A stretch of DNA of 30,099 nt from the IMG/VR virus record IMGVR_UViG_3300037088_001149, positions 1 to 30,099 of that record; one strand, 5' to 3'. Under the pieces are notes generated by a model. That model searched no databases, had not been told where the DNA came from, and worked only from the letters and a program-made list of their open reading frames with translations. Of the stretch, positions 1,981 to 26,158 are shown piece by piece (positions within the stretch are counted from its first letter, which is position 1; each line of letters begins with the position of its first letter). The translations under genes and the position numbers were made by a program. Origin of the DNA: a virus.

Positions 1981-2009
1981 TCTACTAGAGCCGCTCCTCC
2001 CGGCTCCTC

Positions 2010-2046
2010 GCTGACCGGCGCTGCATGGTTCCCGGCGCCGGCCAGC
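2010..2046 (+). promoter_or_regulatory. Leader hairpin upstream of first early gene
   Basis: Bases 2010-2021 pair with 2035-2046, twelve pairs with one A-C mismatch, in the ~95-nt leader between the predicted start of transcription and the ATG at 2082. No T-tract follows, so it is not a terminator. It could stabilise the message or control translation. Confidence 0.5.
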
Positions 2047-2081
2047 CCTAAACGGGAGAGACGGCAGCGAGGATAACCAAA

Positions 2082-2315
2082 ATGGACACGTTCCGACAGA
2101 AGTTCCATATCAGCCGTAAAGACGGCACCCCTCTTCCCGCCGACGCCGAGTTCTTCGTCCTGCGGCTCGACAATGGCGCCGATGACGCCTGCCACGCCCG
2201 CGTGGCCGCCGACTACTACGCCCAGGGCATCCAGGAAGGGGACAGCGTCCTCTCCAAGCAGGTTCTGGACGGTCTGGACCGCCTGGACGCCGGCGAACCC
2301 TTCTATGAGGCCTGA
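2082..2315 (+). CDS. Hypothetical 77-aa protein
   Basis: First gene of the plus-strand early-type run, about 95 nt downstream of the predicted start of the 1945-1980 promoter. GAGG lies 9 nt before the ATG. The protein is acidic (MDTFRQKFHISRKDGTPLPA...) and appears fully soluble, with no Cys-pair or nucleotide-binding motif. The N-terminal third could form a short beta hairpin, and the C-terminal half (ARVAADYYAQGIQEGDSVLS) is helical. I do not recognise a family. Its position next to the repressor-like gene suggests an immediate-early function. Confidence 0.65.
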   Translation: MDTFRQKFHISRKDGTPLPADAEFFVLRLDNGADDACHARVAADYYAQGIQEGDSVLSKQVLDGLDRLDAGEPFYEA

Positions 2316-2317
2316 CC

Positions 2318-2461
2318 ATGGAAGCCCTCGGCGTCTGCATCCTCCTGAGCACTCTGACAGCTTCCCTTACGGCGTACGTCATCGCCCGGATGTGCAAGCA
2401 CTCTTTCGACACCTGGATCCGCACGACGGACAACTGGCCGACCCGGGAGCCCTTGAAATGA
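2318..2461 (+). CDS. Small membrane protein (47 aa)
   Basis: This ORF starts 3 nt after the preceding stop codon and overlaps the next start as ATGA (2458-2461), typical of translational coupling. Residues about 5-24 (GVCILLSTLTASLTAYVIAR) form one hydrophobic membrane segment. A short basic/polar tail with an Arg-Thr-Thr-Asp stretch follows. No family is recognisable. The strict packing between two genes is the main reason to believe it. Confidence 0.55.
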   Translation: MEALGVCILLSTLTASLTAYVIARMCKHSFDTWIRTTDNWPTREPLK

Positions 2462-2871
2462 TCACCCACACCGACCTTACCGGCTCCGGCTGGGCCGTTC
2501 TGGCCACCAAGGCCTGGGCTACCCGCGAACACGCCGTCGCCGTGCGCACCAAGGTCGGCGCGGCGGCCCTGGTCACCAGCGACGACCAACTGCAGCAGAT
2601 CTACGGCGGTTGCAACATCGAGGACCTGTGGAAGGCGTCTTCGATCCACGCCGAGCGCACCGCGATCGCCAATGCCATCGCCCACGGCGCCAAGAAGATC
2701 CAGGCCATCCTGGTTGCCGCCGAGCGGGAGAAGTTCACCCCTTGCGGCAACTGCATGGACTTCATCTTTCAGTTCGGCGGCCCGACCTGCCAGATCGGCT
2801 TCCAAGGCAAGCCCGGCGGCCCGGTCAACGTCTACACAGCCCACGAGCTGATGCCGGAGTACCCATGCTGA
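2458..2871 (+). CDS. Cytidine/deoxycytidylate deaminase-like zinc enzyme
   Basis: A 137-aa protein with both zinc signatures of the cytidine-deaminase superfamily: H64-A65-E66 (the Zn ligand and the catalytic Glu) followed by P-C96-G-N-C99 (the two Cys ligands). The H-A-E form is typical of dCMP and nucleotide deaminases, while PCGNC resembles the PCGxC of free-nucleoside enzymes, so the substrate cannot be assigned. The N-terminal part (TKAWATREHAVAVRTKVGAA) fits the first helix and strand of the fold. A role in nucleotide pools or base modification during infection is the natural inference. The start is the ATG at 2458, overlapping the upstream stop; a longer open frame from 2173 is the shadow of the 2082 gene. 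It overlaps the next gene by 7 nt. Confidence 0.85.
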   Translation: MITHTDLTGSGWAVLATKAWATREHAVAVRTKVGAAALVTSDDQLQQIYGGCNIEDLWKASSIHAERTAIANAIAHGAKKIQAILVAAEREKFTPCGNCMDFIFQFGGPTCQIGFQGKPGGPVNVYTAHELMPEYPC

Positions 2872-3203
2872 GAATCATCGACGGCAAGCGCGGGACAGGC
2901 CGTACCCGCAAACTGGCCTGGGCGTTCCTGGGCCACGCCAACAAGCAGAAGGCCATCCTGATCTCGCACCCCAGCCAGCGGCCGCAGGTGGTGGAGGTCA
3001 TTGCCGAGTTCTACAAAGAGCACCAGTGGCCCTTCACCGCGGCGATGAAGCGGGAGTTCGAATCCAAGATCATCACCGTCTGGGAGCTGCAGCACATCAA
3101 GCAGGGTCTCCCCGCCGAGACCGACCTGTTCATCGACAACACCGAGCGCGTGCTGCAGGAGCTCCTGCGCTTCAACGTCGCCGCCGTGGTGGTGGAGACC
3201 TAA
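2865..3203 (+). CDS. Small protein with degenerate P-loop NTPase-like features (112 aa)
   Basis: The start ATG (2865) lies inside the end of the deaminase gene. Residues 7-14 read GKRGTGRT, a Walker A-like loop after a short strand (LRIID), but with Arg in place of the invariant Lys. A second strand (KAILISHPS) follows. A Walker B-like segment DLFIDN centres on Asp91, and the last strand is NVAAVVVET. The order beta-P-loop-helix-beta...hhhhD resembles a minimal RecA/helicase-like core, but 112 aa is too short for a full domain and the Lys is missing. It may bind nucleotide weakly, be a regulatory relic, or have convergent motifs. Coupling to the deaminase suggests a linked function. Confidence 0.65.
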   Translation: MLRIIDGKRGTGRTRKLAWAFLGHANKQKAILISHPSQRPQVVEVIAEFYKEHQWPFTAAMKREFESKIITVWELQHIKQGLPAETDLFIDNTERVLQELLRFNVAAVVVET

Positions 3204-3205
3204 CC

Positions 3206-3310
3206 ATGCCGCCGCCCCACGTCAATGCCGTCATCTGGCTGATCCTGGCATTCGGTCTGGTAGTCATGCTGTCCAACCTGAAAGGCCCCAAGGGCCCGGG
3301 AGATCTGTGA
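3206..3310 (+). CDS. Small membrane peptide (34 aa)
   Basis: It starts 3 nt after the preceding stop and its TGA overlaps the next ATG (TGATG at 3308-3312). After MPPPHVN it has one hydrophobic span (AVIWLILAFGLVVMLSN) and a short Gly/Lys/Pro tail. It is too short for family recognition. Support comes from the packed position and the clean membrane segment. There is no strong Shine-Dalgarno, so expression probably depends on coupling. Confidence 0.5.
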   Translation: MPPPHVNAVIWLILAFGLVVMLSNLKGPKGPGDL

Positions 3311-3558
3311 TGGCCACCAAACGCTACTCGATCATAAGCTCCGTAGAAGGCGACTGGACGATTGCCGCCAGCAAAGAGGGCAACTGCATTGTTGCCCTCA
3401 GCGGAGGCCACAGCCGCAGCCAGGCTCTCGAAGCCATCCTGAAGGACCTGGGAGTTGAGGTCCACCATGTCGAGCGCGACATGGGCGACGGGGACTACTT
3501 CCCCAAGAAGAACGATTTCAAGAAGAGGGACAAATGCCAACCGAGAACGAAGAAGTAA
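3310..3558 (+). CDS. Hypothetical 82-aa protein with Lys-rich tail
   Basis: The ATG at 3310 overlaps the preceding stop; a GTG at 3307 would add one residue. The N-terminal ~55 residues look like a small alpha/beta domain (strands YSIISSVEGDWTIAA and NCIVALSGG, helix SRSQALEAILKDLG). The last ~20 residues are very basic (PKKNDFKKRDKCQPRTKK), which could bind nucleic acid. Its 3' end overlaps the next gene by 25 nt in a different frame. No family is recognised. Confidence 0.6.
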   Translation: MATKRYSIISSVEGDWTIAASKEGNCIVALSGGHSRSQALEAILKDLGVEVHHVERDMGDGDYFPKKNDFKKRDKCQPRTKK

Positions 3559-3962
3559 AGCCCGAAGTAGAAGTCGACGCCGCGCCGGTACTACCCGCCC
3601 CTCCCATAGAGGTTGCGCCGGTGGTTACGCCTGTGGTTGCTCCCAAGCCGCCGGCGGCTCCGAAAGCCGTCCGTACCCGGCCAACCATGATGACGCCTAT
3701 CATACCGGTGCTGGCCGGCTCCATTCCGCAACCCGCCGCCCCCGGCGCGCCGACTCCCCAGGTCATCGCCATCTCCGGCCCGCAGCGCCTGGTGGTCGAC
3801 GTGACCCGCAAGCCCGCCGAGCAGCTCTTCCACGGCCTGAAGATCGAGGCCAAGTTTATCGATGGCCTGCCGGGCGTCGTGATCAGCAAGGGTGGCGGCC
3901 ACAAGCCGATCACCATACTCGCACCGGAGCGTCCGCAGCACCGGTTCGTGATCGAGTACTAA
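3534..3962 (+). CDS. Hypothetical protein with Pro/Ala/Val-rich N-terminus (142 aa)
   Basis: Residues about 1-75 are low-complexity Pro/Ala/Val with acidic residues at the start (MPTENEEVKPEVEVDAAPV), likely a disordered spacer. Residues about 76-142 form a compact beta-rich region (VIAISGPQRLVVDV, LKIEAKFIDGLPGVVISKGG, PITILAPERP). It resembles neither a known enzyme nor a known virion motif. It is the last protein gene before the tRNA. A weak Shine-Dalgarno (AAGAGG, about 9 nt upstream) lies inside the previous gene. Confidence 0.6.
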   Translation: MPTENEEVKPEVEVDAAPVLPAPPIEVAPVVTPVVAPKPPAAPKAVRTRPTMMTPIIPVLAGSIPQPAAPGAPTPQVIAISGPQRLVVDVTRKPAEQLFHGLKIEAKFIDGLPGVVISKGGGHKPITILAPERPQHRFVIEY

Positions 3963-3970
3963 CGGTTCGC

Positions 3971-4046
3971 GGGGTGGTAGCTCAGTTGGCAGAGCATCGG
4001 CTTGTCAAGCCGGCGGTCGTGGGTTCGAGCCCCATCCGCCCCGCCA
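3971..4046 (+). tRNA. tRNA-Asp (anticodon GTC)
   Basis: A complete 76-nt cloverleaf is visible. Acceptor GGGGTGG (3971-3977) pairs with CCGCCCC (4036-4042) with one G-T wobble, followed by discriminator G and an encoded CCA (4044-4046). The D-arm is AGCTCAGTTGGCAGAGC. The anticodon loop TTGTCAA carries GTC and is closed by CGGC/GCCG. The T-arm reads GTGGG-TTCGAGC-CCCAT. It sits inside the early-type gene run with no promoter of its own, so it is probably processed from the operon transcript. An encoded CCA and intact arms argue that it is functional rather than an attachment-site remnant. Confidence 0.97.
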
Positions 4047-4065
4047 AGTTTCAAGAGGAGGAGTT

Positions 4066-4398
4066 ATGAAGGACAGCTTTATCGAAGTCGAAGAGCAACA
4101 CCCCACGCCTGGCCAGCCCAATCAACCCACGGCCGCGGAGATCAATGGCTGCGAGGCCTTTGCGGACCGGCTGCTGGCCGAGTACGACGCCCAGATGTAT
4201 GAGTGCGTCGCCGAAGCGGCCAACGAGTTTCCCACCGATGTGGTGAGCAAGGATGACATCCGCCGTCTCGGCCCCTTCATCAACAGCATGATGGTGCGCC
4301 TCTTCGCCCTGGGCGTGGGCGCAGGCGTCGCCGACATGGCGAAACAGGCGCGCGCGCGAGCCACTACCGGCGGATCGCCGACGGTGACCCTCCAGTGA
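4066..4398 (+). CDS. Hypothetical 110-aa protein
   Basis: A strong ribosome-binding site (AGAGGAGGAG) lies 2-10 nt before the ATG, 19 nt after the tRNA. The N-terminal ~30 residues are polar and probably flexible (MKDSFIEVEEQHPTPGQPNQ). The rest is helical: CEAFADRLLAEYDAQMYECV, then a segment IRRLGPFINSMMVRLFALGV and a Gly/Ala-rich helix GAGVADMAKQARARA. No motif allows a function. The stop codon overlaps the next start (GTGA). Confidence 0.7.
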   Translation: MKDSFIEVEEQHPTPGQPNQPTAAEINGCEAFADRLLAEYDAQMYECVAEAANEFPTDVVSKDDIRRLGPFINSMMVRLFALGVGAGVADMAKQARARATTGGSPTVTLQ

Positions 4399-4916
4399 GC
4401 ACCCCCTGCGTAACCCCGGGTTGCAACCGCCAGCACTACACCTTCGGCAACCGGTGCTGCGCCGGCTGTGCCAATCCCTCCCGGGACGGCGTGGTCGTGC
4501 ATACCGAGCGGTGCAACTGCGACGAGAGCGAGCGCCGTACCCAGGCGGAAGGCGCCGCGCGGCAGCCGCGCGAGGAATTCAACCCCGGCGCATCCCTGCC
4601 ACAGATGCCTCGGAAACGCCACGAGGCTGCCATCCAGATCTCCCAGGAACAGCTCAAGGCCGTTCTGAACATTCCGCCGGCTTGGAATTTGATCGGCGCC
4701 AAGCACGACCCGTTCCAGGGCAGCACCGTCACCCTGCTCTTCTCCCATCCGGATCTCTATCCGGTCCACGAGGGTTGTGTGGCTCCGGTCATTACCGCCA
4801 CCTACAACCTGCCGGACCCGGGACCGGTTGTGCAGCGTTACCGCCCCTCGGCAGCGCGCGCTCGCTTAGCACGCGCGAACTCGGCGCACGACTACTCCGA
4901 AGGAACTCCAATATGA
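4395..4916 (+). CDS. Cys-rich (zinc-binding-like) hypothetical protein
   Basis: It starts at GTG 4395, overlapping the previous TGA. The first 42 residues contain eight cysteines (C5, C10, C21, C22, C25, C40, C42 and neighbours) with C-x2-C and C-x-C pairs and His14/His36, suggesting a small zinc-binding domain. A charged linker (about 43-75) follows. A C-terminal domain comes next (AAIQISQEQLKAVLNIPPAW..., strands STVTLLFSH and APVITATYN). The first domain resembles zinc ribbons in phage accessory proteins, but no named family fits. It is coupled to the next gene by ATGA. Confidence 0.65.
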   Translation: MSTPCVTPGCNRQHYTFGNRCCAGCANPSRDGVVVHTERCNCDESERRTQAEGAARQPREEFNPGASLPQMPRKRHEAAIQISQEQLKAVLNIPPAWNLIGAKHDPFQGSTVTLLFSHPDLYPVHEGCVAPVITATYNLPDPGPVVQRYRPSAARARLARANSAHDYSEGTPI

Positions 4917-5509
4917 CCCGCATCGACGCCGACAAGATCGCCATGTTCGGTGCCCAGGTGTTCATGCAGTATGGGCACCAGCTCCTCACTATTGCCGGCG
5001 CCGCCTGCAATAAGCAGAACCTGCCTAACGCCGGTCCCATTGCCGCCGCGCTGAACCAGGTGCAGGACGACAGCTTCCGCCTGGGCCTGCTGGCCGGCAT
5101 GCGCCTGGACCAGGACCCGGTGGTGCGCAAGTTCCTGGAAGAGCAGGTCGAGCAGATCGAACACGGCCAGGTCACCATTCCCGGCGCGCTCCTGCGCAAC
5201 TGGCTACCCGCCCTGGCGGACCTGACGATCGTCTCCTGCGTCTGGGACTCAGCCGGCGATCAGTTGAAGCTGGTCATCATGGGCGAGAACGCCCCGCTCG
5301 CCATCCGCTACGGGCTCAACCCGGGGACGCGGATCGAGATCACCGCCGTAGAAGTGCCCGACGAGGGCCTGAGCGAACCCGCGCGCCAGGCCATCACCGA
5401 CCTAGGCCTCAACCCCGATGGGGTCGGCGGCGCCCTGGTGTCGTATGCCAAGGACGTCATGTGCTCCTTGGGTGGGATCGAAGAAGTCGAGGTTTCCAAT
5501 GGGAAGTGA
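4913..5509 (+). CDS. Hypothetical 198-aa protein
   Basis: The ATG at 4913 has AAGGA 8 nt upstream and overlaps the preceding TGA. The frame is open upstream to 4421, but that part is a shadow of the zinc-like gene. The N-terminal half is mostly helical (IAMFGAQVFMQYGHQLLTIA, SFRLGLLAGMRLDQDPVVRK). The C-terminal half alternates strands (LTIVSCVWDSAGDQLKLVIM, RIEITAVEVPDEGLS). There is no membrane segment or catalytic signature. It overlaps the next gene by 11 nt. I do not recognise the family. Confidence 0.7.
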   Translation: MTRIDADKIAMFGAQVFMQYGHQLLTIAGAACNKQNLPNAGPIAAALNQVQDDSFRLGLLAGMRLDQDPVVRKFLEEQVEQIEHGQVTIPGALLRNWLPALADLTIVSCVWDSAGDQLKLVIMGENAPLAIRYGLNPGTRIEITAVEVPDEGLSEPARQAITDLGLNPDGVGGALVSYAKDVMCSLGGIEEVEVSNGK

Positions 5510-6832: not shown

Positions 6833-6976
6833 ATGGATGATCCACGCCAGTCCGCCCTACAAGTCGAGATTTGGTTCACCCTGTACCGGCTGCGCTGTAT
6901 TCAGGAACCGGCACAGTATGCCGCGGCCGATGCCCGGCTGGGCCGCCTGCGGACCTACCAGGAGCTGATTAAATGA
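6833..6976 (+). CDS. Hypothetical 47-aa protein, first of a coupled small-gene set
   Basis: The reading MDDPRQSALQVEIWFTLYRL... runs 47 codons to a TGA that overlaps the next ATG (ATGA at 6973-6976). It is an amphipathic, mostly helical peptide with a Trp/Phe/Tyr-rich middle and an Ala/Arg-rich second half. There is no membrane span. Support comes from the coupled geometry with two following membrane proteins and the motif just upstream. No Shine-Dalgarno is obvious. Confidence 0.5.
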   Translation: MDDPRQSALQVEIWFTLYRLRCIQEPAQYAAADARLGRLRTYQELIK

Positions 6977-7128
6977 CGATACCGCCCGACAAGATATTCC
7001 CGACCGTCCTGATCGGCCTCAATGCCGGCGCCGCCGTCATCTGCACCTTCCAGCGCGACTGGAAGATGACTATGTACTGGGCCGGCGCGGCCATGCTGAA
7101 CTATGCCGTCACCTGGATGAAGTCATGA
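6973..7128 (+). CDS. Two-span small membrane protein (51 aa), holin-like candidate
   Basis: It overlaps its neighbours by ATGA on both sides (6973 and 7125). Two hydrophobic segments, FPTVLIGLNAGAAVICTF (about 9-26) and MYWAGAAMLNYAVTWM (about 34-49), are joined by a short charged loop QRDWK. A small two-span protein next to another multi-span protein is a usual form of phage holin or antiholin. No endolysin gene is visible in the window, so this is inference only. Confidence 0.6.
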   Translation: MTIPPDKIFPTVLIGLNAGAAVICTFQRDWKMTMYWAGAAMLNYAVTWMKS

Positions 7129-7442
7129 CGCTCATTGGCCACCTGGATGACCTCCCAATCCATCTGCCCTACAGGCAGCAGCTCAAGGACTTCGTCACCT
7201 TCTTCTGCCTGCAGCTTTTCAATTACTGCATCGTGACCTACAACTACCGCATGATCGCCCTGGGCAAGATCCCCGAGGCGGTGGGCAGCGATCTGCTGAT
7301 TGGTTTCAGCGGGTTCTTCACCATCAAGCTTGTCGCCGACAGCGACAAGAAGTCGCGCTGGGGCCTGGCGGGGTACGTAATTGGCGGCGGCTTTGGCACG
7401 ATCGCCGGCATTGCAATCTCCAAAGTCTTCCACCTGGGTTGA
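7125..7442 (+). CDS. Membrane protein (105 aa), holin-like candidate
   Basis: The N-terminal ~25 residues are polar. Hydrophobic stretches follow at about 22-42 (DFVTFFCLQLFNYCIVTYNY), 57-71 (LLIGFSGFFTIKLVA) and 80-101 (GLAGYVIGGGFGTIAGIAIS), the last with a glycine-zipper look. The short KKSR loop would face the cytoplasm. Coupling to the 51-aa gene suggests a joint role, for instance holin/antiholin, but no family signature proves it. Confidence 0.6.
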   Translation: MTLIGHLDDLPIHLPYRQQLKDFVTFFCLQLFNYCIVTYNYRMIALGKIPEAVGSDLLIGFSGFFTIKLVADSDKKSRWGLAGYVIGGGFGTIAGIAISKVFHLG

Positions 7443-8023: not shown

Positions 8024-8068
8024 TTGCAAAAGGGTACCCTTGCGTGTAGGATGGGTCTGAGGGTACCC
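8024..8068 (+). promoter_or_regulatory. Promoter with two GGGTACCC sites
   Basis: The -35 TTGCAA (8024-8029), a 17-bp spacer and the -10 TAGGAT (8047-8052) form a sigma70-type promoter. The spacer holds the palindrome GGGTACCC (8032-8039) as part of GGTACCCTTG (8033-8042). A second GGGTACCC (8061-8068) follows 29 bp later and overlaps the ribosome-binding site of the next gene. Two sites about three helical turns apart would suit a looping or cooperative repressor. Unlike the other GGTACCCTTG copies, here the box lies in the spacer rather than at the -35. Confidence 0.65.
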
Positions 8069-8070
8069 AT

Positions 8071-8445
8071 CTGGCTAAGGAACAAGATCCATTCGCCGAG
8101 TTCATCGAACGCGCCATCAACATGACCGTCATTGAAGGCGGGTTGCTGGCTCTAACTGCTCTGAAGGATCAGGTACAGGCCAAGATCCACGAGCTGCAGG
8201 CTTCCAAAGGCTACACCGTCGGAGCTGGCTCCGCGGAGGCTGTGGCCGAGCCGCCCAAACGCCGGAAGGCCTCCGGCAAACCATTGTCCGAAGCCCACCG
8301 GGCAGCCATCTCCAAGACCAAGAAAGCCGCCGCGCTCAAGCAGAAGGCGCGCTGGGTAGGAGAGCACCCTCCTACCGCGCCCGACCAGATCGGCGAAGAA
8401 CCGGCCGGCGCGCAGTCCCTTTCCGAACTTACCTCCAAACACTAA
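8071..8445 (+). CDS. Basic NUMOD3-like DNA-binding protein, probably CTG-initiated (124 aa)
   Basis: The first ATG (8122) has no ribosome-binding site, whereas CTG at 8071 is preceded by GAGGG with 7-nt spacing and gives a natural-looking start (M-AKEQDPFAEFIERAIN). I therefore place the start at CTG 8071; 8122 is the alternative. The N-terminal half is helical. Residues about 70-100 (KRRKASGKPLSEAHRAAISK...) are strongly basic and resemble the NUMOD3 motif (G-K-x-x-S-E-x-x-x-x-x-I-S), a DNA-binding element often found near homing endonucleases. No nuclease domain is present. A GGGTACCC site overlaps the translation start, so binding there would also block translation initiation. A terminator follows at once. 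Confidence 0.65.
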   Translation: MAKEQDPFAEFIERAINMTVIEGGLLALTALKDQVQAKIHELQASKGYTVGAGSAEAVAEPPKRRKASGKPLSEAHRAAISKTKKAAALKQKARWVGEHPPTAPDQIGEEPAGAQSLSELTSKH

Positions 8446-8448
8446 TAT

Positions 8449-8484
8449 AAGAGGGGCTTATACAAGCCCTCTTCCCATCTTTTT
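8449..8484 (+). terminator. Rho-independent terminator
   Basis: AAGAGGGGCTT (8449-8459) pairs with AAGCCCTCTT (8464-8473) with one bulged G, loop ATAC. CCCATCTTTTT follows (8474-8484). It ends the CTG-initiated gene and isolates it from the next promoter. Confidence 0.8.
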
Positions 8485-8490
8485 GAAAAG

Positions 8491-8526
8491 GGTACCCTTG
8501 ATTCCTGACTCGTTGTCAGTTACTGT
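8491..8526 (+). promoter_or_regulatory. GGTACCCTTG promoter for structured RNA
   Basis: GGTACCCTTG (8491-8500) leads into the -35 TTGATT (8498-8503), a 17-bp spacer and the -10 TACTGT (8521-8526). The spacer contains CTGAC-N5-GTCAG (8506-8520), a widened form of the CTGACAGTCAG operator. The predicted start is 8532-8534, exactly where a stable 5' hairpin begins (8533). Confidence 0.7.
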
Positions 8527-8532
8527 TGGTCT

Positions 8533-9050
8533 GCGGCTCTAAAGGGCCGCCGGTTGCAGTAGACGGAACCTGGATCTATCGTCATTGAGCCCCCGGATAG
8601 GTGAGCGCGGAAAACACGGCCAACCTGGGAGAGCGGATTTATCAAGGGTTCAGCTTGCCTCAATTCTGGGGGCGGGACTGGTACCTGGTGGCGATGGAAC
8701 AGCTCAGAGGATGCCGATGTCCGGGTATGCACACTCCCGACGGCGAAGCGAAACGCGGAAACTCTAGGCCGACCGTGATCCCCGGATCGATAGGGCCAGC
8801 GCCCCCGTAAGGGAGCTAAGCCAGCGGGGTGACTATCAGGTAGGTTGGCGGGAAACCTAAGCTCGAACCCGCCCAGGATCTGTCCTTACGCGGCTCCGGC
8901 CTCCTGATCGGGATTCAACAAGCGACCTACGGCAGTAGCCGTAGGTGTGCCTGTCGGCACCCCTACCGACAGGAAGCAGTCCCCCGCTCACCAACCTCTT
9001 GATCTTGGAGAGGCCTGGTGGTGGGTAAGCAGAAAATAAAGCCTGAAATA
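8533..9050 (+). ncRNA. Large structured non-coding RNA candidate
   Basis: This ~520-nt stretch between two promoters lacks a convincing gene but is dense in complementary segments. At +1 lies a 7-bp hairpin with loop TAAA (8533-8550). GGTGAGCG (8600-8607) is exactly complementary to CGCTCACC (8985-8992), closing a ~390-nt domain. GGGGGCG (8668-8674) matches CGCCCCC (8800-8806). Local hairpins include CCTACGGC/GCCGTAGG (about 8929-8948) and CCTGTCGG/CCGACAGG (about 8950-8973). The loop of the latter (CACCCC) can pair with GGGGTG at 8826-8831, a kissing or pseudoknot contact. AGGTT-GGCGGG...AACCT...CCCGCC (about 8842-8874) has H-type pseudoknot layout. A GTG-started 69-aa ORF (8601-8810) lacks a good ribosome-binding site. 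No poly-T end is seen, so the 3' end is approximate. The size class recalls phage-borne GOLLD/ROOL RNAs, but I cannot match either. Confidence 0.6.
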
Positions 9051-9057
9051 CTGAAAT

Positions 9058-9093
9058 GGTACCCTTGCTGACGGACAGTAAGTCATATACACT
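9058..9093 (+). promoter_or_regulatory. GGTACCCTTG promoter upstream of 9100 gene
   Basis: GGTACCCTTG (9058-9067), -35 TTGCTG (9065-9070), 17-bp spacer, -10 TACACT (9088-9093). The spacer carries GACGGACAGTAAGT (9070-9083), one of three copies of this 14-mer in the window. The predicted start of transcription is at or within 1-2 nt of the ATG at 9100. Confidence 0.7.
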
Positions 9094-9099
9094 TCAGGT

Positions 9100-9543
9100 A
9101 TGAGCTCAACTCTGTGGGACGAACTAGGCAAGGTGATCGGGGAGAGAGGCATGTGCCCTCCGGCGCGCGAGGCGCACTTCCTGACCGTCTTCGGCCAGTT
9201 GGAGTACCTGCCCGCGGTGATAGAGCAGCTCACCCAGTACATGGCCGCCCAGGCGGAAACCGGCGAGCCATGGTGCGGGTATGTCAGCTACGACCGTCCG
9301 GTGGATGTGGAGCAGATCGCCCTGCCCATCCTGCTGGACAGGCTGAAGGCATTCTCCCAGGACGGAAAGATCGAAGACCTCCTGGCGGTCATGGCCCAGG
9401 TGACGCATCTGGCCACACGAGAGTTCTTGCGCCGGGGACAGCTTCCCGTGATGTACCCCGTTGGTAGGGTGCCCTCTACTCCGGTATTGGATGGGCCGTA
9501 TCCTATCGTCGGGTCATTTGTGGAGTTTTCCGACCGTCACTAG
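9100..9543 (+). CDS. Hypothetical 147-aa protein, possibly leaderless
   Basis: The ATG at 9100 coincides with the predicted transcription start, so translation would be leaderless. An internal ATG at 9151 has GGAG at a good distance and would give a protein of about 130 aa. The product is mainly helical (SSTLWDELGKVIGERGMCPP, EAHFLTVFGQLEYLPAVIEQ, PILLDRLKAFSQDGKIEDLL, VMAQVTHLATREFLRR) with a Pro-rich end. It has no membrane span or catalytic motif. It has its own operator-bearing promoter, like a regulator or immune-type gene. I do not recognise the family. Confidence 0.65.
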   Translation: MSSTLWDELGKVIGERGMCPPAREAHFLTVFGQLEYLPAVIEQLTQYMAAQAETGEPWCGYVSYDRPVDVEQIALPILLDRLKAFSQDGKIEDLLAVMAQVTHLATREFLRRGQLPVMYPVGRVPSTPVLDGPYPIVGSFVEFSDRH

Positions 9544-9818: not shown

Positions 9819-10946
9819 ATGTCGGATGCAGCCCTGGGCGTGACCGTGATGTGGACCGCCGACCCGGAAGGCCGGCTCACTTTTGCCAGCTCGAATCTTG
9901 AGGAGCTTACCGGCCACCCTCTTAGCCATTTCTCCGGAGCTGGTTGGAACGAGGTGATCCACCCGGAAGACCTGGACCGCTTCCGAACCGAGAAGCAAGC
10001 GATCCTCGACGATCCGCGTCCTTTTCAGGTGAACATCCGGTTTGAAACCCCCGCCGGCACCCTGGACATCGCCGCGGCGGGCAGTCCCATCTACAACGCC
10101 GCCGGCATCGTACTTGGGTACGTGGGCACCTGGACGGACGTGACCCGTTGCCGGAACAAGAGCTCCCGCATGCCCCGCCTGGAAGTTCCGTCCCGTCTGC
10201 AGCCTAAGGTTCGCGCCATACCTGTAGTCAGCTTCGACATGGACGGCACGCTCTGCAACACTTACCAGTGCTGGCTGGACCTGGCGACCGAGCTGGATCC
10301 AACACGCGTCTACGACTGGCATGGCGTCTCCTGCAACCAGAAGTGCGGCGCCTGCCGATCCGCCTTCTGCCTCTCCAAAGAAGACCACAGCGGTCCGCGG
10401 CAGATCCCACGGGCGCGTATGACGCAGATTAAAGAAACGGCCCTGGCCACGCCCGACTACTATACGATGATCGAGCCGTTCGATCCGGAAGACATCGAAC
10501 TGATCAAGTACTGCATTGAAGGGCAGCGCTTCCTCGGCGGGTTCCTGGCTACCCGGCCCTATCCCACCAGCGAGAAGGGCGACTATGCCCTGGACGTGGA
10601 TGCGCAGTCCCTGGCCTGGCTGGAAGGCTCCTGGGCCGGACAGGACACCCGCGATTCCTACGCCATTACCGGCTATCGAGGCACCTGCTTCAGCGCGCGC
10701 GACAAGGTCCGCGAGCTGATTCATCGCGGCGTGCAGTATCACATCGACGACAACGCCGGGACGGTGGAGCATATGCGCGCCGCCGGCATTGAGGCTTTCC
10801 TGATCGACCGTCCCTGGAATCGCCACGAGGAATGCGCCTGGCGGGTGCGTTCCATCCAGCAATTCCTGGACATCGTCGCCCCCGAATGCTCCGAAGTATC
10901 GGAAATGGCCGGTGAGAACGTGTACGCGCAGCTATACTACCCATGA
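9819..10946 (+). CDS. PAS domain fused to HAD-type nucleotidase-like phosphatase (375 aa)
   Basis: Residues about 8-112 are a PAS/PAC domain: MWTADPEGRLTFASSNLEEL, the NEVIHPEDLDRF signature, and strands ending in GYVGTWTDVTR. Residues about 130-360 contain the HAD motifs in order: D140-M-D142-G-T (motif I, nucleophile and acid), T245 in FLATRP (motif II), K296 in SARDK (motif III) and D310-D311 in HIDDN (motif IV). A Cys-rich insert (CNQKCGACRSAFC) in the cap region suggests a metal site. The HAD part resembles phage 5'(3')-deoxyribonucleotidases. PAS domains sense ligands or redox state, so a sensor-controlled nucleotidase is possible, but the joining of the two is unusual and the role is inferred. 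The strong promoter at 9682 drives it. AGGGG lies ~11 nt before the ATG. Confidence 0.85.
   Translation: MSDAALGVTVMWTADPEGRLTFASSNLEELTGHPLSHFSGAGWNEVIHPEDLDRFRTEKQAILDDPRPFQVNIRFETPAGTLDIAAAGSPIYNAAGIVLGYVGTWTDVTRCRNKSSRMPRLEVPSRLQPKVRAIPVVSFDMDGTLCNTYQCWLDLATELDPTRVYDWHGVSCNQKCGACRSAFCLSKEDHSGPRQIPRARMTQIKETALATPDYYTMIEPFDPEDIELIKYCIEGQRFLGGFLATRPYPTSEKGDYALDVDAQSLAWLEGSWAGQDTRDSYAITGYRGTCFSARDKVRELIHRGVQYHIDDNAGTVEHMRAAGIEAFLIDRPWNRHEECAWRVRSIQQFLDIVAPECSEVSEMAGENVYAQLYYP
10932..10943 (+). promoter_or_regulatory. Late-type motif copy 3 (CTATACTACCCA)
   Basis: A perfect consensus copy. It overlaps the last codons of the PAS-HAD gene and ends 12 nt before the ATG at 10956. Confidence 0.55.
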
Positions 10947-12956: not shown

Positions 12957-13116
12957 ATGAAAAGACAAATCGTACTGCTCGCACTGCTTCGTGGTCAACG
13001 AGCCCAACCTGGCTGGTATCAAGGGCGTGATCCGCGTCACGATGCCTGTTAAGGCCCTATCAGGCTTCGTCCTGCGCTTCAACAAGGACATGCAGTTCAT
13101 TCCGGTCCTGCCGTAA
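12957..13116 (+). CDS. Small CxxC protein (~52 aa) with 1-nt frameshift near its start
   Basis: AGAGG lies 6 nt before ATG 12957, but that frame (MKRQIVLLALLRG...) stops after 31 codons with an unlikely composition. Removing one A from the AAAA at 12960-12963 gives MKDKSYCSHCFVVNEPNL... running to TAA 13114-13116, with a zinc-knuckle-like C-x2-C and good beta/alpha pattern (GVIRVTMPVKALSGFVLRFN). The second frame has no start codon of its own until an internal GTG. The likely explanation is a homopolymer length error or a recent frameshift mutation. Programmed +1 slippage on ATG-AAA-A is less likely. Confidence 0.5.
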
Positions 13117-19480: not shown

Positions 19481-21628
19481 ATGCAAACCGCCGACGCAGT
19501 CCGAGAGACTCTCCAACCACAGGCAGCCCCGCGGCTGCCTGATGGGGAGTTCTTTCGGCTCGTCACGAAACGAAATACGGGTCCAGACGGGCAACCGCTG
19601 GACCCGACCCTTTTTCGCCGCCTGGGCAACGAGATCTGTGTCCGCTGCCAGGAGTCTTACCGGCTGAAGTTTCCCGGCCGGCCCTTCAAGATCACCTGCA
19701 AGGGAATCTATTCCCAACCCGACTTCATCGAGCTGGCCGCCAAGACCAAGCTCACGTTAGAGGAAGTCCGCGACCTGCTCGACGTGCCCTACTGGGCATC
19801 CCGCCACATCAAGATCCCCAATGCCGACGGCGACCTGGAATACTTCATCGCCCGCGACTACCAGTGTGAGTCCCTGCTCTGCACCACTTCCCGCCAGGTG
19901 GACCGCTGGGGCCGCGGTAACGGCAAGACCCTCATCTCCATCATCAAAGAACTGCACGTCGCCACCACCCGGCGGCGCCACAACACCCTGATCGCCTGCC
20001 CGGCCAAAGCCCAGGCGCAGAAGTGGTTCGACGACATCAATCAGATGATCCAGGCCGACGCGGGCCTGGCATCAGCCTTGGTTGGCACCCGGCAGCAGCC
20101 CTATTACACCTTCCGCTTCGCCAACGGCACCACCATCAACATCTTCACCACCGGTTCGCAGTCCGGCCGCGAAGCCGACGTGGTGCGATCGCAGTCGCCG
20201 CGCCGCGTGTGCATTGACGAGCAGGATCTCCTCAACCCGGGAGACTACAAGGCCATCATGCCGCTGCTCCGCCGGTTTCCGGACAGCGAGTTCCATGGCA
20301 TGTCGACGCCGACGGGCAAGCGCGAAACTTTCTGGCAGATGTGCAAGGAGTTTGGCGACTATCGCGAGCTCCACTTCCCCGCCTCCCGGCACCCGGATTG
20401 GAACAAGGAGAAGGAAGAAGCCTGCCGCCGGGAAGCGCGCACCGACATCAATTACCAGCACGAGTTCGAGGCCGAGTTTGGCGAGCAGGAAGGCGGCGTG
20501 TTCAAGAGCATCTACGTGGATGCCGCCAAACAGCCCTACATCTACCGCGACCTGAATCCCAGGGACGAATGCTGGAAAGGCTGGAAGTTCTTTCTCGGCG
20601 TGGACTGGAACGGGCAGGGCACCGGCTCCCGCATGCGCGTGGTGGGCTACAATCCCGAAACCCGCCGGCGCAAGTGCGTGGACCTGGCGGCGGTCTCCAC
20701 CAACACCATGGACACGCTGGACACGCTGCGCGATCTCAATCGGCGGTGGCACTGCATCGGGGTCTATATCGACGCCGGCTTCGGTTATGTGCAGGACGAA
20801 CTGATCAAGCTGATCGGCTATCACTCGAACGATCCGGACGACAAGCGCCTGTTGGACATCAAGGTCGTCGACTTCGGCGCCAACATGAAGACCAACAAGC
20901 TGGTCCCCAACCGCGGCAACGACAAATACCTGCAGAAGCAGGAGCTGGAGCGGCCGACCAAGCCATTCATGGTCGAGGGCGCGCAGATGGTCCTCGAGAT
21001 GGGGGACTTCGAATTCTCCGACGGGGACACGTTGCTCGAAGAACAGCTCCGCGCCTACCGCGTCAAGACCTACAGCCGCCACGGCTGGGCCAACACGTAT
21101 GAATCCCGCGTGGGCGACCACGATCTGGATGCCTTGGTTCTGGCGTTGCTCGGCGTCGAACTGAAGTTCGGCCTTACCAAGATTGCCGACCGGGGACCGC
21201 GCCACTCCTCTGTAGAATACGTCGCTGCCTTCGGCCTGGGCACACCCACACCGAATGCTCCCAAGGATTACATCGGCGGGACGACAATCCAGTCGCCGCG
21301 CGAGGCCATGCAGGAGAAGGCCAACGTGCCCTCCCGCGCCGTGATGCCCTCTGGCAACATGGGCGCGGCCGGTGTGCGCAACGTCATCGGCAAGGGCGCC
21401 ATGGGCGCGCCGGTATCGTACATCGAGTATCCCGGCGGCCCGCCGGCATCCGCCGGACAGCGGCGCAGCGCCAACTTCGGCGCGGCCGGCGCGCAGGGAG
21501 CCACCAACGGCGGCAATATCCCATCCCGCACCAGCATGTTCCGTAACGGCGGCCGCGCGATGGGTATGGGCGCTGCCGGCGGCGGCCGGCGCGGCCCCGC
21601 CAACGGAAAAGGGCTCTATACCCGATGA
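19481..21628 (+). CDS. terL: Terminase large subunit (715 aa)
   Basis: DNA-packaging motor ATPase with C-terminal nuclease. Walker A-like loop WGRGNGKT with K149-T150, Walker B VCID246-E247, and a coupling/STP motif at S275-T-P are visible. The RNase H-like nuclease has acidic residues D375 (GVDWNG), D431 (YIDAGF) and D546/D550 (GDHDLDAL), so both activities look intact. The N-terminal ~130 residues include a C-x2-C pair (CVRCQESY) and form an extension. The last ~125 residues are Gly/Ala/Arg/Asn-rich and low-complexity (RGG-like), which is not standard for terminases. It is coupled by ATGA to the 135-aa gene. An in-frame stop at 19472 fixes the start at 19481. No small subunit is adjacent. 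Confidence 0.95.
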   Translation: MQTADAVRETLQPQAAPRLPDGEFFRLVTKRNTGPDGQPLDPTLFRRLGNEICVRCQESYRLKFPGRPFKITCKGIYSQPDFIELAAKTKLTLEEVRDLLDVPYWASRHIKIPNADGDLEYFIARDYQCESLLCTTSRQVDRWGRGNGKTLISIIKELHVATTRRRHNTLIACPAKAQAQKWFDDINQMIQADAGLASALVGTRQQPYYTFRFANGTTINIFTTGSQSGREADVVRSQSPRRVCIDEQDLLNPGDYKAIMPLLRRFPDSEFHGMSTPTGKRETFWQMCKEFGDYRELHFPASRHPDWNKEKEEACRREARTDINYQHEFEAEFGEQEGGVFKSIYVDAAKQPYIYRDLNPRDECWKGWKFFLGVDWNGQGTGSRMRVVGYNPETRRRKCVDLAAVSTNTMDTLDTLRDLNRRWHCIGVYIDAGFGYVQDELIKLIGYHSNDPDDKRLLDIKVVDFGANMKTNKLVPNRGNDKYLQKQELERPTKPFMVEGAQMVLEMGDFEFSDGDTLLEEQLRAYRVKTYSRHGWANTYESRVGDHDLDALVLALLGVELKFGLTKIADRGPRHSSVEYVAAFGLGTPTPNAPKDYIGGTTIQSPREAMQEKANVPSRAVMPSGNMGAAGVRNVIGKGAMGAPVSYIEYPGGPPASAGQRRSANFGAAGAQGATNGGNIPSRTSMFRNGGRAMGMGAAGGGRRGPANGKGLYTR

Positions 21629-22032: not shown

Positions 22033-23795
22033 GTTTCAACAAGATCGTCTTCAACTACACGCCGCCGCCGACCGCGCTGCCGCAGGCAATACCTGGCCAG
22101 CCTGGAACTATATTGCCGGTCACTGCCACCTCCAGCAAGAACGATCTGGCGAAGGCTTCCCGCGCGGCCGCGCTGATCGATCGCCTGCGCGCGCTGAAAG
22201 CCACGGCGCAGTACCTGGAATCGCTGATCGCCGCGCGCTGCCAAGGCATGGGCATCAAACCCAACTACAGCGTGGATCCGGAACTGGGCATGGCGCTCGC
22301 CAGGCTGTACTCCGCGCCCACGCCGCCGACCGGCATCGGCCTGGAAATGTACAACAACCTGCTCGCCGCCGAGATCGGCATTACCCGCGCCGAGATGGCG
22401 CTGGCGGGATCGAGCTCTCCCATCAAGGTATCCCCCATGCAGAAGGCGGACCTGATGAAGGTCACCCTGGCCTTCGAAGACGCCATGGCCGAGACCGGCC
22501 AGTTCCGCCACCAGCTCCCGCTGTTGATGCGCGAACTGAAGAACGACGAGCTGATCTTCGATTCCCTGGTGGGTTCCCTGCAGGAGTACCCGGTCCTCAA
22601 TGGCTCCGACTACGCCGCCGCGCCGGCAACCGCGACATCCACGGTGATCGACAACGGGGAGTGGATGACGCCTGAGCAGCAGAGCCTGGCCAGCCTGATC
22701 GATACCTCCAAGCTGCAGGTCAAGAACGCCACTATCGCCACCCACTCGGCGAGCGAAGTGACCAACGCCCTGCCTGATATTCCGATCTTTAGCGCCAGCT
22801 TCAATGCCGGTACCCCCGATCCTATCTTCTCCACCACCGACGCCGTGTTGATCGACGTCAACATGCAGACCGCCGCCGAAGTCGACGCCCGCCTGGACCA
22901 ATACCAGAAGACGATGGGCGCCATGTACAACCTGGCGACCGGCATCGACGATGCCTACAACTACGTGGGCCAGATCGCCAACCAGTACCTGGTCACCGAC
23001 CTGAACAAGCTGATCCTGGTCATGTCCACGCTGAGCGGCCTCATCCTGTTGTTCCACAAGCCTAAGCTGAAGGATATAAAGGGCCTGATTGGCATGATGA
23101 TCATGCCCCGACTGATCGCCGAGGTGGGCCAGTTCAACTGCCTGATGGACCGGGTGGAGCAGCGGCTGTTGGCTCCGGTGACTGAGGTTTTGGGATCCCT
23201 AAATCGCCTGGTAGGCGAAGTCTCCCAGGTCTCCAACGACGTGGCCTACCTGGTCGCCAAGGGCGGGATGACCGGCATGATGCGGTCTTCCATCTCCGGA
23301 TCCAACAAGATGCCCAAGCAGGAACGCATCAAGGCTCTCGACACGCTACCCAAGGAGATGGCTCTGGTGCAGGCGCACCTGGCCTGGGGCCTGATGGAGG
23401 CCAGCCGCAAGCGGCGCACCGTGGAAGACGGCATGTTGAAGGCGATGGACCGCCAACTGGCCGGTTCCGGGGATCGTCTGGACCTCATGAAATCGCTCCG
23501 GTCGATCAACGCCGTGGTCGATATCATCAAGAACCTAATACTAGAAAGGCAGCGAGGGTCACTCCAAAGCGTGGATACGCCCTCCCCGACTCAGAAAGTG
23601 GAAGCGATGAGCAACATCGCCAGCAATCTGAAATCGGAGAGCGGGACCTCATTCTCGGTGCAGGGGAACATGCTGGTAGCCCAGCCGCCGTCCCTGCCGG
23701 CGCCCCCCGCCGCGACCGTGCCAATCCTCGCCGCCGGCGGCGCCAACCGGGTGGACTCCGCCGACCTAATCAAGATTCACATGGATGCCCTATGA
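22029..23795 (+). CDS. Unknown 588-aa structural-block protein
   Basis: It overlaps both neighbours by ATGA. The N-terminal ~60 residues are Pro-rich. Helical regions follow (AALIDRLRALKATAQYLESL, LMKVTLAFEDAMAETGQFRH). A hydrophobic stretch DLNKLILVMSTLSGLILLFH (about 319-338) is the only membrane-like segment. Beyond it lie long amphipathic helices (IEQRLL..., LMEASRKRRTVEDGMLKAMD) and a Pro/Ala-rich end. Size, coiled-coil tendency and placement between terminase and portal suggest a virion or assembly component. I recognise no family. Confidence 0.75.
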   Translation: MSFNKIVFNYTPPPTALPQAIPGQPGTILPVTATSSKNDLAKASRAAALIDRLRALKATAQYLESLIAARCQGMGIKPNYSVDPELGMALARLYSAPTPPTGIGLEMYNNLLAAEIGITRAEMALAGSSSPIKVSPMQKADLMKVTLAFEDAMAETGQFRHQLPLLMRELKNDELIFDSLVGSLQEYPVLNGSDYAAAPATATSTVIDNGEWMTPEQQSLASLIDTSKLQVKNATIATHSASEVTNALPDIPIFSASFNAGTPDPIFSTTDAVLIDVNMQTAAEVDARLDQYQKTMGAMYNLATGIDDAYNYVGQIANQYLVTDLNKLILVMSTLSGLILLFHKPKLKDIKGLIGMMIMPRLIAEVGQFNCLMDRVEQRLLAPVTEVLGSLNRLVGEVSQVSNDVAYLVAKGGMTGMMRSSISGSNKMPKQERIKALDTLPKEMALVQAHLAWGLMEASRKRRTVEDGMLKAMDRQLAGSGDRLDLMKSLRSINAVVDIIKNLILERQRGSLQSVDTPSPTQKVEAMSNIASNLKSESGTSFSVQGNMLVAQPPSLPAPPAATVPILAAGGANRVDSADLIKIHMDAL

Positions 23796-26158
23796 CCCGT
23801 AAAGCCGTGGATGACAACCGCCTGAAGTTCCTGCAAGCCCTGGTCGATCTGCTCACGACCGACGGGCAGATGTCCGCCCGGCAGGCCGCCGACCGGCTGC
23901 AGATCAACCGCACCACCGCGCGCTACAACCTGAAGCTGCTGGTGACGGAAAAGCGAATCCAGGAAGTAGGTGCGGGCATCTATGCGGTTCCACAGCGGGT
24001 AGAGTCCTCGCCCACCACCGATATGCTGGCGGCTGCCTCCGGCAGCGGAACGCTTCCCAAATCCAAAGGCCTGGTTCCCGAGGTACTGCCGTCGCTCGAA
24101 CGGATCGCCGGCCTGCAGGCCCGCTTGAAGCGCGACATCAACCGCCTGGGCATTACCGGACCAGTCACCGGAACCGTAACCCGGTCGCGCATGCACGACG
24201 CCGCCGGCAACCAGATTCATCCCAACCTGGCCGGGATTGGCAAGCGGTCTACCCAGCCGGAAGTCACCTGGCGCACGGTGACCGGGCGCGACGAGAAGCG
24301 CCAGAACGACAAGCTCTCCACTTCCACCATCCCTGCGTCCTTCAAGACCAAGCTGGACAACGAAACCGACATCCTGAACAGCTACTGGGGCTGGGTCGGC
24401 ATTCTCGAGCCCGAGTACGACCTGCTCGAAGGCTACACCCTGATCGACGTGGATTCCTACTACCGGCAGAGCATCAGCCGCAAGCTGGCGCTGGCCTTCC
24501 GCAACGGCGTGGAGACGGTCGGCGACAACCAGGAGTTCGTCAAGTACATCACCCGGCGCGCCGGCCAGGTTGGCTACATGACCGGCACGACTTTCAAGGG
24601 CCTGCTAAAAGAGGTCCTGTTCAACCTGTACGTCTGCAGCAACTGCATCCTGCTCAAGATCCGCGACAAGGACGCCTCCGGCGGCTACGCCAACGAGAAG
24701 AACAACGATCGCGTCCCGGTGGCCGGGTACAAGATCTGCCCGCCGCAGACCATCTTCCCTTTCATGGATGGCAAGGGCCGTATCGACCGCTGGAGGCGGT
24801 TCTTCGGTACCGGCCGCCCCTACAAAGATTACGCCGTGGAAGACATCATCCACTTCAAGTGGGATGTCAAACCAGGCCACCTGTTCGGCACGCCGCGCAC
24901 GGTCTGTGTCCGGGACGACGTCTTTGCCCTGCGCAGGCTCGAGGAAAACATCGAGCTGCTGCTGGTGAACCATCTCTTCCCGTTGTTCCATGTCCAGGTG
25001 GGCACCGAGGAGGCGCCGGCGCAGATGACCGCCGACGGCATCAGCGAGATCGACGTCATCAAGAACCTGATCCAAAACTGCCCGAAAGAGGGGGTTTTGG
25101 TGACCGACGAGCGCGTCAAGGTCGAAGTCCACGGCGCGAGCAAAGAGGGCGTCGACCCGCAGCCCATGCTGGCCCACTACAAGTCCCGCATTTTCACCGG
25201 CTTGGGAGTCAGCGGACTCGACCTGGGCGAGATGGACACGGGCAACCGCGCCACCGCCGAGAACGTGTCGCAGAACCTGAAGGACAACATCAAGGCCGAC
25301 CTCGACACCTTCAGCGACATGGCCACCATGCAGTTCTTCCGAGAATGGTTCCAGGAATCCAATACCCAGCTCAGTGTGCAGAACGCGGTGGCCGACGTCC
25401 GCCTGGAGTTCCACGAGATCGATGTGGACACCCAGATCAAGAAGGAAACCCACGCCGCCAACATGTTCAACAACCACGGCATTGACCAGACCGAGTACCG
25501 CAAGCGCATGAAGATGAAGCCGGTTGAGAACGGCCAGCGCAAGGAAATGCACTTCGAGCGGCACGTCCTGGGCCTGGAAGACGCCAAGACCAAGAACCAG
25601 ATCAAGGTCGTTGACGTTCAGCACGAACACGCCATGGAGCAGCAGGAGTCGGCACAGACGGCGCAGCATGCCACTGCCGTTCACACCGCGGCCTCCACGA
25701 AGTCTGTGAAGGTTACCCACAAGCGCGTCAACGGGTCGAGCAAGACCGTGCACACCACCGAGCCGACCAAGACCGCAGCCAAGGCTGTCAGCAATCTGAT
25801 GCAGCCCACTAACCAGCATGGCAAGAACCTGGATCCCCACAAAGCGCGCAGCTCGCAGGATCCGGAGCTGCTGGTACAGATCCACGACGCTTTCGCCCAG
25901 CTCGAAGAGGAGCTGCGCACCGCGGAGTGCATGACGGTAGACCAGTGGAACCGCGGAGCGTGGCTTCTGATCCAGGATATGCTGCCCGGCGACGAGCTGC
26001 ACGACGCGCGCGCCTGGATGCTGCCATTCGTGGTACGAAACGAGGACACCCTCGATACGGCCGATTTGCTGTACTCCTCGCTCCGCGCATGGGCGGCGGA
26101 CCCGATTCCCGGAGAGTCCGAAGACGTATCCGATGAAAAAGAGGTCGCTGCGGCGTAA
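23792..26158 (+). CDS. Portal protein with N-terminal winged-helix domain (788 aa)
   Basis: Residues about 8-68 read as a winged helix-turn-helix (FLQALVDLLTTDGQMSARQA, ADRLQINRTTARYNLKLLVT, then the wing EKRIQEVGAGIYAVPQR). The portal body starts at about 190: membrane-like helices YRQSISRKLALAFRNG, then YVCSNCILLKIRDKD, ICPPQTIFPFMD, DIIHFKWDV and LFGTPRTVCVRDDVFALRR (portal hallmarks of a clip/stem core), ending in a helical, His/Thr/Lys-rich tail of ~150 residues. It forms the dodecameric DNA channel at the capsid vertex. The DNA-binding-like N-terminus is not usual for portals and is discussed as a finding. It is coupled by ATGA to the 588-aa gene. Confidence 0.85.
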   Translation: MTRKAVDDNRLKFLQALVDLLTTDGQMSARQAADRLQINRTTARYNLKLLVTEKRIQEVGAGIYAVPQRVESSPTTDMLAAASGSGTLPKSKGLVPEVLPSLERIAGLQARLKRDINRLGITGPVTGTVTRSRMHDAAGNQIHPNLAGIGKRSTQPEVTWRTVTGRDEKRQNDKLSTSTIPASFKTKLDNETDILNSYWGWVGILEPEYDLLEGYTLIDVDSYYRQSISRKLALAFRNGVETVGDNQEFVKYITRRAGQVGYMTGTTFKGLLKEVLFNLYVCSNCILLKIRDKDASGGYANEKNNDRVPVAGYKICPPQTIFPFMDGKGRIDRWRRFFGTGRPYKDYAVEDIIHFKWDVKPGHLFGTPRTVCVRDDVFALRRLEENIELLLVNHLFPLFHVQVGTEEAPAQMTADGISEIDVIKNLIQNCPKEGVLVTDERVKVEVHGASKEGVDPQPMLAHYKSRIFTGLGVSGLDLGEMDTGNRATAENVSQNLKDNIKADLDTFSDMATMQFFREWFQESNTQLSVQNAVADVRLEFHEIDVDTQIKKETHAANMFNNHGIDQTEYRKRMKMKPVENGQRKEMHFERHVLGLEDAKTKNQIKVVDVQHEHAMEQQESAQTAQHATAVHTAASTKSVKVTHKRVNGSSKTVHTTEPTKTAAKAVSNLMQPTNQHGKNLDPHKARSSQDPELLVQIHDAFAQLEEELRTAECMTVDQWNRGAWLLIQDMLPGDELHDARAWMLPFVVRNEDTLDTADLLYSSLRAWAADPIPGESEDVSDEKEVAAA

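Follow-up and report, generated by a model that had tools for sequence, protein, structure and literature searches.

The 654 nucleotides at 8446-9099 of the window (the whole virus record analysed here, 30,099 bases long) probably give rise to a free-standing non-coding RNA, of which only the last third looks folded beyond chance. This reading follows from the lack of a gene in the region, together with a repeated, phage-specific type of promoter in front of it. Its direct support consists of the non-coding composition, the promoter's family membership and a local fold better than that of shuffled sequences; the transcription of the RNA, its strand, ends and partner, and its action in trans are what we infer. 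In its fuller form, a regulated, self-contained cassette for an orphan non-coding RNA of ~500 nt, acting in trans and with its 3′ domain as a stable core, the reading has in our judgement about an even chance of being right.

The window is probably a fragment of a ~200-kb phage. This is suggested by its terminase (19481-21628) and its portal (23792-26158), which have 25-32% identity to their counterparts in large phages such as Acinetobacter phage ME3, Moorella phage MTATph1 and Bacillus phage KLEB27-3, and 44-50% identity to the pair from a 204-kb contig. Some features of these and other genes are separate from the candidate RNA. The portal has an N-terminal helix-turn-helix domain, and at the start of the terminase gene 180 nt (19481-19660) form very stable consecutive hairpins (z -7.05), unusual in coding sequence and possibly a packaging or regulatory site. 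Intein-like inserts are found in the Walker A motif of the ME3 large terminase (149-2431) and, with ~350 aa, between GEMD and TGNRAT in the portal gene of the closest small relative (1981-5187). The product of 9819-10946, an unusual phage protein, has a PAS domain fused to a 5′-nucleotidase/polynucleotide-kinase-like domain. At the window's own start (1-75), a 25-bp perfect inverted repeat surrounds a 25-nt spacer holding a smaller hairpin, and may be an artefact of fold-back during assembly; a hairpin telomere is a less likely alternative.

The sigma70-type promoter TTGATT-17-TACTGT described in the earlier note is present, and although its hexamers are weak by the sigma-70 consensus and the promoter scan made no call there, it belongs to a family with the pattern GGTACCC-TTGnnn-17-TAnnnT that also heads neighbouring genes. 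The window has five copies of the motif GGTACCCTTG (at 1945, 8033, 8491, 9058 and 9675), each on the + strand and in intergenic sequence, and at four of the five sites a TAnnnT (TATGCT, TACTGT, TACACT or TAGAAT) lies exactly 17 nt past TTGnnn. The looser pattern GGGTACCCTT, with one mismatch allowed, has 12 matches against 1.03 expected. At 8033 the promoter is TTGCAA-17-TAGGAT and the palindrome lies inside its spacer; another copy follows at 8062, an operator-like arrangement. The palindrome AAGGGTACCCTT at the -35 box of the candidate RNA's promoter has an identical copy at 8030-8041 and near matches at 1944, 8059, 9055 and 9674, and the one in the promoter spacer (CTGACTCGTTGTCAG) is related to TGACAGTCA at 1728, 1783 and 1960, with a partial match at 9068-9085. 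These palindromes and their related copies make an operator-bearing promoter credible at 8498-8526 despite the weak hexamers, in line with the earlier proposal of one. Intervals of 458, 567 and 617 nt separate the sites at 8033, 8491, 9058 and 9675, which bound a gene, the non-coding region and a gene, so that the candidate RNA region occupies the place of a gene cassette. Elsewhere, at 1771-1893, a promoter TTGACT-17-TATGAT with a TGACAGTCA operator and, ~85 nt further on, a strong GC hairpin accompanied by TCCTTTTT may mark either a ~30-aa ORF or the gene of a small RNA; the fold z of the 150-nt step at 1701 is -6.5.

Features in and around the candidate RNA region (positions of the window)
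Feature	Position	Strand	Basis
Terminator-like hairpin and T-rich tail closing gene 8122-8445	8453-8484	+	sequence GAGGGGCTTATACAAGCCCTC...TCTTTTTG
Perfect 12-bp palindrome AAGGGTACCCTT, candidate operator overlapping the -35 box	8488-8499	either	sequence
Promoter TTGATT (8498-8503)-17-TACTGT (8521-8526)	8498-8526	+	GGTACCC-TTG family
Second palindrome CTGAC-TCGTT-GTCAG (CTGACTCGTTGTCAG), candidate operator in promoter spacer	8505-8519	either	sequence
Candidate non-coding transcript, no intrinsic terminator found	8530-9056	+	no coding-like ORF, family promoter
Hairpin at predicted RNA 5′ end, 6 Watson-Crick pairs and 1 G-U	8533-8550	+	pairing probability 0.70
69-aa GTG ORF, judged non-coding	8601-8810	+	codon score -0.19; 1.1% of gene segments that low
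Structured 3′ domain	8823-8988	+	fold z -3.76 (+), -5.44 (-)
H-type pseudoknot layout AGGTT-GGCGGG-A-AACCT-loop-CCCGCC, alternative to the MFE arm	8842-8873	+	sequence
9-bp perfect hairpin, loop AGTA	8925-8946	+	pairing probability 0.98-0.99
8-bp perfect hairpin, loop CACCCCTA	8950-8973	+	pairing probability 0.74 at full length, 0.98 in domain
Next family promoter GGTACCC-TTGCTG-17-TACACT, for gene 9100-9543	9058-9093	+	pattern match

The candidate RNA region, 8446-9099, is the window's longest stretch lacking a coding-like reading frame. Log-odds codon scores separate real genes well (+0.1 to +0.6), and short ORFs of 41-105 aa that are judged genuine (12991-13116, 6973-7128, 7125-7442 and 3307-3558) reach +0.38 to +0.57; the best frame within 8446-9099, ORF 8601-8810, scores about -0.2. 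The codon scores thus bear out the earlier statement that no convincing gene follows the promoter, and, with the promoter's family membership, they speak for the proposed non-coding unit of ~500 nt.

Predicted folding is uneven along this unit. The full 503-nt transcript is only slightly more stable than its shuffles (z -1.6, with 4 of 100 as stable), and in 150-nt steps the first 300 nt stay between z -1.1 and +1.4, the stable part lying at 8840-8990 (z -3.3 to -4.1 on the + strand), where the step at 8901 ranks fourth among the ~300 + strand steps of the window. For 8815-9000 on the + strand the fold has -80.3 kcal/mol (z -3.76; none of 200 shuffles as stable), a z-score that is optimistic, as others for this domain are, because the boundaries were picked after the fold was inspected. 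The reading as a large ornate RNA is supported for the last ~165 nt only; over its first ~300 nt the transcript folds no better than shuffled sequence. In the predicted fold the 3′ domain is closed by 11 bp between AGCGGGG-U-GACU (8823-8834) and AGUC-CCCCGCU (8978-8988), that is, 8823-8829/8982-8988, one bulge, then 8831-8834/8978-8981; inside are an arm (8835-8908) and two adjacent perfect hairpins. The excess over shuffles comes mainly from these two hairpins and the bulged stem that closes them. They are the local hairpins previously given as 8 bp each, both exact and beyond chance, one of them really having 9 bp (8925-8933/8938-8946) and the other 8 (8950-8957/8966-8973).

The remaining contacts proposed for the RNA fared less evenly. 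Exact helices of at least 6, 7 and 8 bp in 8528-9030 number 32, 10 and 4, against 31.2±5.0, 7.7±2.8 and 1.8±1.2 in dinucleotide shuffles, and local hairpins of at least 8 bp with loops of up to 12 number 2 against 0.13 expected (~3% of shuffles reach 2); only the local hairpins are beyond chance. The long-range helices 8600-8607/8985-8992 and 8668-8674/8800-8806 are exact as described, but helix counts are at about the level of chance and their pairing probability in the full-length ensemble is ~0, energy predictions for 500 nt being unreliable either way. The complementarity of a CACCCC loop to GGGGTG (8826-8831) is likewise exact, but it needs bases of the stem 8823-8829/8982-8988, with which helix 8600-8607/8985-8992 also competes, so that several of these contacts are mutually exclusive. 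The H-type pseudoknot layout noted near 8842-8874 was recovered from the sequence, and the hairpin placed at the predicted start is present, with one G-U among its supposed 7 bp.

One possibility is that the region is a spacer or a decayed cassette, with a real promoter and a functionless RNA, its hairpins being incidental or acting on DNA. The chance level of the overall fold, of the long-helix count and of the first 300 nt is consistent with this, as is the fact that no conservation was detected in the relatives searched. These comprised 35 records found through portal alignment and then a closer set that included the 204-kb contig (about 38-40 records overall); the candidate RNA sequence is absent from all of them, and a covariance model built from the single 3′-domain sequence found no match over 0.73 Mb (window and related sequence). 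No DNA similar to the region was found in phage and plasmid records. Genes 9100 and 9819 and the terminase, each looked up as a protein in viral contigs, likewise had no match. Synteny with the 204-kb contig extends over genes downstream of the RNA (10956 and 15034, terminase, portal), everything upstream being different, which places the candidate RNA in a part of the genome that changes fast. The contig's own 1.2-kb gap at 31755-32961 contains small minus-strand ORFs and no evident RNA. Known RNAs in seven relatives are tRNAs only. Among exact-pattern scans, those with TTGGCGGGAAACCTAAGC and GCGGAAAACACGGCCAA gave chance matches within coding genes, that with GCGAAACGCGGAAACTC gave 22 isolated matches, and that with GATTCAACAAGCGACCT had no match. 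Against a spacer stand the two adjacent perfect hairpins within an 11-bp stem; phage genomes, moreover, rarely keep 650 nt unused behind an intact promoter. On balance a spacer is unlikely, while keeping some weight.

Another possibility, also raised in the earlier note, is that the region serves gene 9100-9543 as a very long 5′ leader and controls it by attenuation or structure. The candidate RNA and this gene are on the same strand, stable hairpins lie 130-180 nt upstream of the gene, and the terminator scan found no intrinsic terminator between 8973 and 9100, before the next promoter, so that read-through would be possible. A leader is less likely, however, because the gene has a promoter of the same family (9058-9093, predicted start ~9100), which would make the upstream region unnecessary; an in-frame ATG at 9151, after the Shine-Dalgarno-like GGGGAGAG, would provide the gene with a separate leader. 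A leader function for the whole region is accordingly rated as quite improbable. At the 3′ end of the candidate RNA, 18 of the 21 positions in 8997-9017 can pair with 8303-8323 in the mRNA of gene 8122-8445, possibly by chance.

The + strand might instead code for a small divergent protein of 69 aa, from the GTG at 8601 to 8810, in an open frame reading VSAENTANLGERIYQGFSLPQFWGRDWYLVAMEQL... whose first 30 codons score +0.09, in the lower range of real genes. The score of the whole ORF (-0.19) is as low in just 1.1% of real gene segments, there is no clear ribosome-binding site, and Pfam, PHROGs, PDB and tblastn against phages and plasmids gave no family or sequence match; such a protein would also leave 8811-9056 and the hairpins unexplained, and it is very unlikely. 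A 21-nt match to two terminase genes in this frame (AENTANL), at first sight a hint of coding, was set aside because the search pattern itself favours the frame and the resemblance does not extend. Least probable is that the functional RNA is a ~190-nt antisense transcript of 8815-9000. The minus strand does have the better fold there (-95.2 kcal/mol, z -5.44, no shuffle as stable), so that folding does not settle the strand, and the terminator scan called a terminator-like hairpin in minus orientation at 8454-8469. Near 9000-9060, however, that strand has neither a family promoter nor a sigma-70-like call, and all promoters identified in the area point to +.

If the region does encode a free-standing RNA, its closest counterparts may be sought among the long RNAs of other phages. 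The lnc001 and lnc002 RNAs of phage K (a Staphylococcus Kayvirus) are intergenic RNAs of a large virulent phage, 635 and 1154 nt long by Table 1 coordinates and of unknown function; they were shown by RNA-seq, beside tRNA genes, and one has its own early promoter (PMC9241854). The candidate RNA is likewise intergenic, non-coding and several hundred nt long, and has its own promoter, in this case recognised by sequence as a member of a family with fixed 17-nt spacing; it differs in being known from sequence and in lying 4.5 kb from the only tRNA of the window (tRNA-Asp, 3971-4046). The search of phage records found no sequence match to the candidate. By analogy, the candidate would most likely work like the phage K long non-coding RNAs.

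ROOL, like GOLLD, is phage-borne; it is several hundred nt long, with pseudoknots and loop contacts of the kind proposed for the candidate RNA, and its hallmarks are an extensively covarying secondary structure and a homo-oligomeric cage. Both are usually near tRNA genes, and many GOLLD members exceed 800 nt (PMC12286853), in contrast to a candidate of ~500 nt with no tRNA neighbour, not beside a tRNA island and folding at chance in its 5′ part. An Rfam search, which the earlier note had suggested as a check, was run with cmscan on the window and the region at the gathering threshold and at E up to 10; it returned chance matches only, and no family. At E up to 10, neither the curated GOLLD model (its universally conserved 3′ region foremost) nor that of ROOL matched in the window or region; since these models do not match and those RNAs are usually near tRNA genes, the candidate is, by Rfam, not a member of either class. 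Group I and II introns, RNase P RNA, tmRNA and 6S RNA were likewise not found by Rfam or ARAGORN.

Under the reading as an RNA cassette of a large tailed phage, transcription would start at ~8532, from a promoter with the palindromic GGTACC operator at its -35 box and the second, TGAC-N5-GTCA palindrome in its spacer, both operators being common to this promoter and to neighbouring gene cassettes. The product would be an untranslated RNA of ~450-520 nt. Its 3′ domain (8823-8988), predicted to form a closed, multi-branched fold that includes two strong hairpins, may protect the RNA or bind its partner. Such an RNA would most likely act in trans during infection, under a repressor or activator shared with its neighbours. 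More speculatively, and with low confidence, it might represent a new class of ~500-nt phage RNA, marked by the closed multi-branched 3′ domain, the two-operator phage promoter and a kissing-loop switch in which the CACCCC loop and GGGGTG would pair in competition with the closing stem.

To our knowledge, the function of the long non-coding RNAs of large phages described so far (GOLLD, ROOL and the phage K lnc RNAs) is unsettled. A further long phage RNA, unrelated to these and with recognisable operators, would help to explain when and why phages make such RNAs; it would also point to RNA genes among the intergenic cassettes of large phages.
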